Shown here: positions 9,891 through 15,596 of the stretch, piece by piece
Position numbering within the stretch: position 1 is the first letter of the stretch
Layout: each line of letters starts with the position of its first letter
Assembly (NCBI GenBank): GCA_011390885.1
Contig: JAABRO010000011.1
Location: 1-64,000 of the forward strand
Source of the DNA: Gemmatimonas sp.
GTDB taxonomy: Bacteria; Gemmatimonadota; Gemmatimonadetes; Gemmatimonadales; Gemmatimonadaceae
DNA length: 64,000 nucleotides
Direction: 5' to 3'
Position numbers and translations under genes: made by a program
The notes under the pieces: generated by a model
Told to the model about the DNA's origin: nothing
The model's input: the letters and a program-made list of their open reading frames with translations, nothing else
Databases searched by the model: none

Positions 9891-10940
9891 ATGCTCTTCG
9901 AAACCGTGATTGCCGGCAACACGCTGGCCACGTGGGGTGTGGCGCTCGCCACCGCCTGCGTGGCCAGCCTCGTTTTCCTCCTGGTCCGCCGCGTCGCCGT
10001 GGGCCGCCTGCGCGCACTTGCCGCGCGCACCAGCACGAACGCCGACGATGTGGCCGCCGAGGTGATCGAGCGAACCCGTACGTGGTTCCTGCTGGTGGCG
10101 GCCGCGTACCTCGGCGCGGCCACCCTCGCGCTGCCCGCCGAGTGGAGCGGCCGCCTGCGCGCCGTACTCGTGATCGCGGGCTTCACGCAGCTCGGCCTGT
10201 GGGCCAGCGCCGCGGCGCGCATTCTCCTCGACAACTACCGGCGGGACAAGCTCGAGAGCGATCGCGGCGCCGCCTCCATGGTGGGCGCGCTGCAGTTCGT
10301 GGTCATGGTGGCGCTCTGGTCGCTGGTCTCGCTGCTCGCCTTGAGCAACCTGGGGGTCGACATCACCGCGCTGGTCGCCGGTCTTGGCGTGGGCGGCATC
10401 GCCGTTGCGCTCGCCGTGCAGAACGTGCTCGGTGACCTCTTCGCGTCGCTCGCCATCGTGCTCGACAAGCCCTTCGTCGTGGGCGATTTCATCGCCGTGG
10501 ATGACAAGGTGGGCTCCGTGGAGCATGTGGGACTCAAGACCACGCGCGTCCGCTCCATCTCGGGCGAGCAGCTCGTCTTCTCCAACACCGACCTGCTCTC
10601 CGCCCGCATCCAGAACTTCGGGCGCATGCTCGAGCGCCGCATCGTGTTCTCGCTGGGCGTCACGTACGCGACGCCGCGTGGCGACCTGGCGCGCATCCCC
10701 GAGCTCATCGAGGACGCCGTGCACGCCGAGGACTCGGTGCGCTTCGACCGAAGCCACCTGAGCGGCTACGGCGCCTTCTCGATCGACTTCGAGACGGTCT
10801 ACTTCGTGACGTCGTCCGACTACCGCACCTACATGGACGCCCAGCAGCGCATCCTGCTGCGCATTCACGAGGCCTTCGAACGGCACGGCATCGAGTTCGC
10901 CTTCCCCACGCAGACCCTGTTCCTCGCCAGGGCCGAGTAA
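9891..10940 (+). CDS. MscS-family mechanosensitive channel (first copy)
   Basis: A 349-residue membrane protein with about four N-terminal hydrophobic segments and a pore-lining helix of the MscS type, GLGVGGIAVALAVQNVLGD. The beta domain follows (FVVGDFIAVDDKVGSVEHVG, ISGEQLVFSNTDLLSA), then a C-terminal alpha/beta domain. MscS channels open on membrane tension and release solutes on hypo-osmotic shock. ATG at 9891 begins a hydrophobic N-terminus. The gene is 44 nt after the patatin gene and convergent with the symporter gene, with only 16 nt between stops. Its closeness to a symporter and an osmolyte synthase suggests an osmotic role, and a second MscS gene lies at 20799. Confidence 0.9.
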   Translation: MLFETVIAGNTLATWGVALATACVASLVFLLVRRVAVGRLRALAARTSTNADDVAAEVIERTRTWFLLVAAAYLGAATLALPAEWSGRLRAVLVIAGFTQLGLWASAAARILLDNYRRDKLESDRGAASMVGALQFVVMVALWSLVSLLALSNLGVDITALVAGLGVGGIAVALAVQNVLGDLFASLAIVLDKPFVVGDFIAVDDKVGSVEHVGLKTTRVRSISGEQLVFSNTDLLSARIQNFGRMLERRIVFSLGVTYATPRGDLARIPELIEDAVHAEDSVRFDRSHLSGYGAFSIDFETVYFVTSSDYRTYMDAQQRILLRIHEAFERHGIEFAFPTQTLFLARAE

Positions 10941-12696: not shown

Positions 12697-14916
12697 TCAG
12701 CGACCGCCGGGTGTCCCGGCCATTGCCTCGAGGAACTCTCGGCTCCAGGCATCCACGTCGTTCCCCTCCACGATCGCGGCGAGCCGACGGATGTGCAGGC
12801 GACGCGCCTCGGCCGGCATCACGAGTGCGTCGTGCAGGTGACGTGTCATGCCTTCCACATCGTACGGGTTGGTGAGCACGGCGCCGTGCATCTCCACCGC
12901 CGCGCCCGCGAACTCGGAGAGCACGAGCACACCGTCGCCCTCGACACACTGCTTGGCCATCACGAACTCCTTGGCCACCAGGTTGAGGCCGTCGCGCAAC
13001 GGGGTGATCCATGCCACGTCGGCGGCGGCGCCGTAGGTGACGACCTCCTCGAACGGCAGCGAGCGGAACAGGTAGTGCACCGGCGTCCACGAGAGTGAGC
13101 CGAAACGGCCGTTGATGCGCCCCACCACCTGGTCCACCGCTTCTCGCACTTCCTCGTACACTTCCATGCCGGGCGCCGGTGGCGTGGTCACCATGAGCAG
13201 CGTGACGGCCCCGTGCAGTTCCGGATGCGCCTCGAGCAACCCCTCGAACGCCTCCAGCTTCTGCAGCGGCCCCTTCACGTAGTCGAGGCGCTCCACGGAC
13301 AGCACGAGCTGCGTGCCGCGGAAGCGATCGCGGATCGCGCGCACCTGCGCCTGTCGCTCCGGCGCGTCGAGGATCGTGCGGATCGCGCGCGTGTTCACCC
13401 CCACGGGATGCGCGCCCAGGTGCACGACGCGATCTCCCGTGCGCACCGTCGACGGCATGCGCGGAATCGCCAGCGCGCCACCGTGCACGCGGAAGCGCGG
13501 CGCGCACTCCACCGTCTCCAGCACCTCCGTGGGCGTGTGCGAGCGCAGCACGTCGAGGAAGTTGGCCGCGTAGCGCGGCACGTGGAATCCCACGTAGTCG
13601 CACTGCGCGAGCGAGCCCGCGATCTGTCCCGCCCACGGAATCACGTTGAACACGTCCGCCGGCGGAAACGACGTGTGGTGGAAGAACCCGATGCGCAGGT
13701 CCGGACGCAGGCGACGCAGCGCCCCCGGCACCATCCACAGGTTGTAGTCGTGGATCCACACCAGCGCGCCGTGGTCCGCTTCAGCCGCCGCCGCCTCGGC
13801 GAAGCGGCGGTTGATCTCGAGGAAATGCTGCCAATCCTCCTCCACGAAGCGCGCACGCTCCACGAAGGAGAAGATCACCGGCCAGAACGCTTCCTTCGAG
13901 AACTTCTTGTAGAACCGCTCCACGTCGGACTCGGCGAGCGGCACCTTCGCGGCGACGAGGTTGGGGAAGCGCGCCTCGTCCACGAGGTCGTGTGTGGTGC
14001 CGCCACTGCCGTCGTGATGCGTGGTCCACGCCACCCACGAGCCCTGCCGGCCGCGATCGAAGCAGCCGAGCAGCGTGGGGATGATGCCGTTCGGGCTCGT
14101 GTGCCGCTGGCGGATCACCTGCCCCTGCACGCGCTTCTCCTCGTAGGGCAGCCGATGGTACACCACCACGAGCTGCGCGTCGCCGGAGGGCGACTCGGGC
14201 GCCGGCACGTCGAAGTGCGCGCGTTCGCGCAGCACCTCGAGGATGCCGCCGGCGCCGGGCGCGGTGGCATGGTGGATGTGCGGCCGTCCCACCGTGGCCT
14301 CGAGCAGCGCCGGCTCGGCCTGGCCCACGACCACGCCGCGATAGCCTGTCTCGAAGAGCGAGAGGTCGTTGAGCGTGTCGCCCGCCACCACGATCTCGTG
14401 GTCGGGCACGTCAAGCTGCGCCGCGAGCCGGCGCAGCGTGTCCCCCTTGGACACGCCGCGTGGCAGCACGTCGAGATAGCGATCGGCGCTGTACAGCACG
14501 TCCACGTCGAGGTGCGCGAGGCGCTCACGGATCTCGTCGAGCCGCGTTGCGTCCTCGAGCAGGAACGAGCAGCGCCGCTCCTGTGGCACGCGCTGGCGCA
14601 CCAGCGCCGGCAGCCCCTCGAGCGCGCGCAGGATCGGATCGTTCCCCACCCAGTGCGCGCTCAGCTCCCATTGGAGCGGAGTCACGGGGCGGCGTCCGTC
14701 ACCGTGCAGCACGGTGGCACCGACATCGGCGATGATGTAGTCGGGGTCCGGGACCAGGGGGTCGGACAGCAGGGGCAGCACACTCTCGGTGCCACGGCCG
14801 GTCACGAAGACCAGGCGGATGTCCTGCGAAGCGCGCACGGCGCGGTACAGCGAAAGTCGATCGGCCTGTCGGCCGCCGAGAAATGTTCCGTCGAGATCGG
14901 TCGCGAGCAGCAGAAT
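12697..14916 (-). CDS. ggpPS: Fused glucosylglycerol-phosphate phosphatase/synthase, probable ATT start
   Basis: About 739 residues in two domains. The N-terminal HAD phosphatase (about 1-230) has motif I DLDGT at residues 7-11 and the late HAD motif [10 protein letters not shown]. The C-terminal GT20 synthase starts [14 protein letters not shown] and has SPNGIIPTL, which is typical of GgpS rather than OtsA. Other GT20 marks are [18 protein letters not shown] and [14 protein letters not shown]. The synthase would join NDP-glucose and glycerol-3-phosphate and the phosphatase would release glucosylglycerol, a compatible solute. Between an upstream in-frame TAG and motif I there is no ATG, GTG or TTG. 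ATT at 14916 lies 9 nt after GGAGG, and CTG at 14913 is the alternative. GTG at 14838 would remove motif I. A trehalose-phosphate synthase/phosphatase is the alternative function. Confidence 0.85.
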
Positions 14917-15149
14917 GGGAACGGCCCTCCGTTGATGGTCCGAGGGCGCGCACGCCCCAACCTTTGCAACCTAGCCCCGAATCACGCCCCGACAACCGAT
15001 CAGAGACCGAGGCACGGATCGCCCCCGAACCATCGCGTTGCTTGCGTGCAGCGGTCCGGAGCGCGAGAATCGAGGCATGGCGATGTGATGCGCGCGCCGA
15101 AGCGTTCGTGCGCGCGCCGGATTGCCGCGATTCCCCCACTGGAGATGTC

Positions 15150-15596
15150 ATGAAGCTCGACCGCATCCTGCTCACCACCGACCTGTCCGACGAATCGCTG
15201 CGCGCCTTCGCCCCGCTCGCCTCGCTCGCCAAGGCACAGGGGTCCACCGTGACGCTGCTGCACGTGGTCGAGGACACCACATTCACGCCACGCGGCGCGG
15301 CGTTCGCCCCGCCGATCTCGTTGCCCGGCGCCGAGGAGGACGTGCAGCGCGCCGAGACGTGGCTGGCCGAACGGGCCGGGAATGCGCTGGCCGGCCTGCC
15401 GGTGGAGGTGCATGTCATTCGCGCGCCCAACGTCGCCACCGCGGTGGCGCACTACGCGCACGAGCACGGCTACGACCTGATCGCCATGGCCACCCACGGT
15501 CGCACCGGCTTCCGCGCGCTCATGATGGGGAGCGTCGCGTCGGCGGTGCTGCGTCATGCCGATCGTCCCGTGCTCGTCTTCCCTCGGCAGGGCTGA
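15150..15596 (+). CDS. Universal stress protein (UspA family)
   Basis: A 148-residue single Usp domain. The first strand is KLDRILLTTDLSDES. The C-terminal ATP-binding signature G-x2-G-x9-G-S/T appears as HGRTGFRALMMGSVASAV, and the protein ends with the usual PVLVFPRQ strand. ATP-binding Usp proteins respond to starvation, oxidative and other stresses, with effects that vary between members. ATG at 15150 follows GGAG by 5 nt; a longer open frame upstream is Arg/Ser-rich and not protein-like. The gene is divergent from ggpPS with 233 nt between them and is followed 20 nt later by a lipoprotein gene. Confidence 0.92.
   Translation: MKLDRILLTTDLSDESLRAFAPLASLAKAQGSTVTLLHVVEDTTFTPRGAAFAPPISLPGAEEDVQRAETWLAERAGNALAGLPVEVHVIRAPNVATAVAHYAHEHGYDLIAMATHGRTGFRALMMGSVASAVLRHADRPVLVFPRQG

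Follow-up and report, generated by a model that had tools for sequence, protein, structure and literature searches.

Where does translation begin in a gene whose reading frame holds no canonical start codon ahead of its first catalytic motif? The question is posed by ggpPS, which occupies a minus-strand frame (14973-12697) of the 64,000-nucleotide stretch of Gemmatimonas sp. DNA analyzed here (hereafter, the window). From the in-frame TAG that closes this frame upstream (14973-14971) to the codons of HAD motif I (DLDGT; 14898-14884), ATG, GTG and TTG are all absent, as the first-pass annotation of this DNA had noted; that annotation had recognized the TAG itself but placed it at 14970-14972, a slip of one base. 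An ATT codon (14916-14914) lies 18 codons after the TAG, preceded at a distance of 9 nt by the Shine-Dalgarno (SD) sequence GGAGG (14930-14926), again as reported earlier, and directly followed by a CTG (14913-14911). The next in-frame canonical codon, the GTG at 14838-14836, is codon 27 and lies 3' of motif I, so that initiation there would, as had been claimed, delete the catalytic aspartates; an annotation limited to ATG, GTG and TTG would cut the protein past these residues.

The ggpPS gene and its product

Counted from the ATT, the gene has 739 codons (14916-12697, minus strand) and encodes a glucosylglycerol-phosphate phosphatase fused to a synthase of the GT20 type, an enzyme whose product, glucosylglycerol, protects cells against salt. 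PF05116 (S6PP) matches residues 2-230 with 172.8 bits, and this N-terminal HAD/S6PP-type phosphatase domain contains the DxD motif; the catalytic aspartates of motif I fall within codons 7-11, which are invariant in the alignment of all six orthologs described below. PF00982 covers residues 248-732. The C-terminal part of the protein scores 624.4 bits against TIGR02398 (glucosylglycerol-phosphate synthase), above the curated cut-off of 569, and the OtsA model TIGR02400 gives 408.5, under its cut-off of 564.85. The match to TIGR02398, combined with the N-terminal S6PP domain, identifies the protein as the GgpPS fusion, and the name that had been proposed from the letters of the sequence therefore stands.

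Conservation of the start region among orthologs

Five further fused orthologs were found when 288 genomes of the order Gemmatimonadales were searched, so that the ggpPS set comprises six species in three genera and two families. Three of the orthologs come from the same genus (G004, G001 and G003, at 87%, 80% and 79%, respectively), and two from another family (G125 and G054, at 73% and 67%). The six GgpPS form one clade (SH-aLRT 100) in a tree built from 82 protein sequences. The codon in question is ATT in the window, G004, G125 and G054, and ATC in G001 and G003, and in all six species, this ATH codon aligns with the ATG of Flavihumibacter relatives. Each ATH is preceded, 7-9 nt upstream, by an SD (GGAGG or GAGG, or GGGAG), such that a putative AUH start with an SD at proper spacing is conserved in six of the six orthologs. 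In G125, where ggpPS follows another coding sequence whose TGA ends 27 nt upstream, the leader is unrelated to that of the genus, yet the SD is kept.

The frame has no usable ATG, GTG or TTG, strictly so in the window and in G125, both of which lack a canonical start anywhere from the upstream stop to motif I; elsewhere, there are only unshared codons. In G004, an in-frame TTG and ATG are codons 2 and 3, and G003, G001 and G054 have upstream in-frame TTG, GTG or ATG codons, none of which is common to the set. For these species, a canonical start is conceivable. Two other Gemmatimonadota GgpPS begin with ATG (L178) and GTG (L177), and in nearly all of the other ~75 GgpPS loci in a scan of the collection, a canonical codon either coincides with the conserved N-terminus or precedes it, as a rule by no more than 25 codons.

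Of the 288 genomes searched, 6, belonging to two families, have the fused gene. Such a patchy distribution suggests that the gene was transferred horizontally or lost repeatedly, and that its ATT/ATC start went with it. A stand-alone GgpP-like phosphatase (L033) has ATC where its sister species (L006 and L032) have ATG; it lacks a clear SD, and distant GTG/TTG codons exist upstream.

Where coding begins and what else could explain the locus

Comparison of species pairs locates the edge of the coding region. Over the first 24 codons from the ATH, there are 0-1 differences at codon position 2 and 7-16 at position 3, whereas over the 12 codons before it, the differences are about equal at the three positions; the last 15 bases of this upstream segment contain the SD. 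Judging from these alignments, codon-periodic constraint starts exactly at the ATT/ATC, and the third-position bias from the ATH on, with none upstream, implies that protein-coding constraint starts there as well. The long overlapping ORFs in other frames of this high-GC region could invite the idea of an upstream start in another frame, or of readthrough or frameshifting that enters the ggpPS frame late, but we hold this to be very improbable given that the substitutions before the ATT lack codon periodicity, the stops differ among species, and the SD-ATH unit is kept where the remaining leader is unrelated (G125 and G054). Suspicion of a sequencing or assembly error, with ATG as the true codon or an indel hiding an upstream start, is natural for a draft assembly of 62 contigs with a completeness of 95.1%; however, the six assemblies, each of a different species, all carry ATT or ATC at this position, and an upstream indel would not restore conserved coding because no species pair has a codon pattern in its upstream substitutions. 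Aligning the N-termini of relatives, the test that had been named at the outset, turned up ATT or ATC in every one of the six species and not a normal start in the relatives with an error here. An error, with five independent orthologs keeping ATT/ATC, is accordingly rejected, and we leave it hardly any probability.

A start at the CTG at 14913, codon 2, or at another near-cognate codon is a somewhat more serious, if still improbable, contender: CTG directly follows the ATT in the window, G001 and G125, and infC of the sister family (f2) apparently starts with CTG. Codon 2, however, varies across the six species (CTG, TTG, CTG, TTA, CTG and CAA), which argues against initiation at this position, the SD spacing would become 10-12 nt, and it is the ATH that is kept throughout and matched to the ATG of relatives. 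The initial proposal of either ATT or CTG thus holds for ATT, which the alignment makes much better supported. The first-pass annotation had also raised the GTG at 14838 as the next canonical codon, from which a synthase-only protein could be made if the phosphatase domain were dispensable; this we consider extremely improbable, since the codon is not shared (four orthologs have no canonical codon at this position, and G054 has TTG) and codons 1-24, including motif I, are under strong purifying selection. Neither CTG nor GTG 14838 being conserved, both were rejected as starts. There is, finally, an inverted repeat, GGGCGTGCGCGCCC (14957-14944, minus strand), which precedes the SD and is nearly invariant in the four congeners; in the window, a pairing of GCCCTC with the GAGGGC of the SD region is possible and forms part of the predicted fold, so that the leader could be imagined as an RNA thermometer or switch hiding the SD, the ATT being incidental. 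We regard this as unlikely, although less so than the preceding readings: the folding energies are not below those of shuffled sequences (z from -0.8 to +0.6), the predicted folds vary between species, the element is confined to the genus and absent in G125 and G054, chance alone would give about one such match in a window of this composition if one mismatch is allowed, and the repeat could equally be a DNA operator. A riboswitch or hairpin switch in the leader is, then, not supported.

Taken together, the ATH in all six orthologs, the SD that accompanies it each time, the coding constraint that sets in at the ATH, and the precedent of infC make it well supported, at the level of sequence comparison, that the ggpPS start is a real, conserved AUU or AUC and not an error.

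Genomic neighborhood

A sodium:solute symporter gene (12693-10957, minus strand; PF00474, with TIGR00813 below cut-off, and synteny) begins 3 nt downstream of ggpPS, adjoins it in five of the six orthologous loci, and is its probable operon partner. Beyond the symporter, in the genus, there is a gene for an MscS-type channel (9891-10940), and upstream of ggpPS, in divergent orientation, a gene for a universal stress protein (15156-15596); this neighborhood fits a role in osmotic stress. On the 12.7-kb contig of G001 (L148), the symporter gene is absent and the MscS gene is located downstream of ggpPS. No consensus sigma-70 promoter or terminator was found in 14880-15200. The inverted repeat GGGCGTGCGCGCCC occurs twice more, without mismatch, on a different contig of this genome (L180 and L181), a common context not being evident.

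Rarity of AUU/AUC starts and the infC precedent

To our knowledge, besides infC, very few bacterial genes hold an AUU or AUC start over evolutionary time. Among 88 syntenic ORF pairs between the contig of the window and the congener G004, ggpPS alone was judged to be a real gene that lacks a canonical start and has a conserved N-terminus; the remaining flags came from antisense frames or from an overlap with the gene upstream, a normal start following. Widespread non-canonical starts were, then, not seen in these pairs, a base rate that comes from ~108 kb of synteny, that is, a sample of the genome, with the flagged ORFs judged by eye. Such starts are very rare in general: Belinky et al. found one AUG-to-AUU switch among 61,358 reconstructed ancestral AUG starts (PMC5622118). 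One paper that mentions both Gemmatimonas and glucosylglycerol is silent on ggpPS in this genus.

AUH initiation in the Gemmatimonadales lineage is, nevertheless, plausible because infC of the same genome (L149) starts with ATC, which has GGAG 8 nt before it, and lacks any canonical start in the 23-codon frame ahead of the conserved region; this fits the known autoregulation by IF3. The infC start is AUU in E. coli and AUC in Streptomyces (PMC5472188), and AUA in S. aureus (PMC13009471). In most of the examined members of the family of the window, the infC start position is ATC or ATT, mostly with an SD (Gemmatimonadaceae L149, L150-L153, L129, L131, L133, L138-L140, L143 and L154); L136 differs from its relatives in having ATG ACA ATA CAG. 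The start is apparently CTG in the sister family f2, to which G125 and G054 belong (L117, L120, L125, L126, L128, L141 and L142), and apparently ATT in family f3 (L122-L124, L127, L132, L134 and L135), implying that the infC codon changed within the order but stayed non-canonical.

A probably weak, possibly regulated start

That six species of three genera have kept ATT/ATC suggests that initiation here is weak by design and may be regulated. We are fairly confident that ggpPS is a functional gene started at the AUU at 14916, which would be positioned by the SD, and that this start would be weak, its output following start-codon stringency (IF3). Under this model, the normal initiator tRNA, guided by the GGAGG, would decode the AUU as formyl-Met; IF3 would reject AUU and AUC, leaving a weak start with roughly a tenth of the AUG yield at published sites, and because of this rejection, GgpPS would be made at a low level that moves with start-codon stringency (the level or state of IF3), as in infC, pcnB, sigR and ccpN. 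AUU use in the cell, the lowered yield and the governance by IF3 are inferred; by analogy with these four genes, weak, IF3-sensitive initiation appears to be the best mechanism. Points against this explanation are the canonical codons noted above in G004, G001, G003 and G054 and, within the genus, the spacing of 9 nt between SD and ATH, which is at the long end. On the simplest reading, the AUU/AUC start would have a single origin, in the common ancestor of the ggpPS clade of Gemmatimonadales, and would have been kept since.

Tight or self-limited control of an osmolyte enzyme, as had been suggested initially, is plausible, but self-limitation in the strict infC sense, whereby the product represses its own start, does not apply because GgpPS is not an initiation factor. 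We consider it a long shot that ggpPS and infC make up a small AUU/AUC regulon, with the amount of the glucosylglycerol enzyme set by the level of IF3 or by the ionic state of the salt-stressed ribosome, so that start-codon stringency would control osmolyte synthesis in these bacteria.

The retention of AUU/AUC by a metabolic stress enzyme in three genera suggests that weak or regulated initiation has been selected for. As a new case of a conserved AUU/AUC start, well supported by the comparison of orthologs, ggpPS also lends itself to a simple test of whether IF3 controls starts other than that of infC.

Comparison with known systems

The GgpPS of Marinobacter, Stenotrophomonas, Pseudomonas and Azotobacter have the same architecture as the window protein, with GGPP N-terminal and GGPS C-terminal (PMC10873239). 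In Marinobacter, ggp lies downstream of the fusion gene (PMC10873239), whereas in the window, the sodium:solute symporter gene takes this place; and, unlike in the window, a canonical start is at hand in nearly all of the other GgpPS fusion loci examined. With infC, including that of the same genome, which is devoid of a canonical alternative, ggpPS shares the conserved AUH start with an SD; however, the infC product is IF3, which represses itself, whereas GgpPS is a metabolic enzyme that cannot close such a loop. E. coli pcnB, with its AUU start, is translationally limited (Binns and Masters 2002, as cited in PMC13009471), and so resembles ggpPS as a non-factor gene in which an AUU start would limit expression, but encodes another enzyme in another lineage, and the ggpPS set includes both AUU and AUC. 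In S. aureus, the yield from AUU/AUA starts that have a strong SD is ~10% of that from AUG, and two such starts are conserved from species to species (PMC13009471). Like ggpPS, cvfC1 (AUU) and ccpN (AUA) combine a non-canonical start with a strong SD across species (PMC13009471), although they were demonstrated by Ribo-Ret and reporters (PMC13009471), and ggpPS by comparative sequence alone. The sigR gene of Streptomyces starts with GTC, and the repression of this non-canonical start by IF3 has been shown (PMC5472188), whereas for ggpPS, the dependence on IF3 is drawn by analogy; sigR is, like ggpPS, a stress-response gene, and its IF3-sensitive start (PMC5472188) is the model that we propose for ggpPS.
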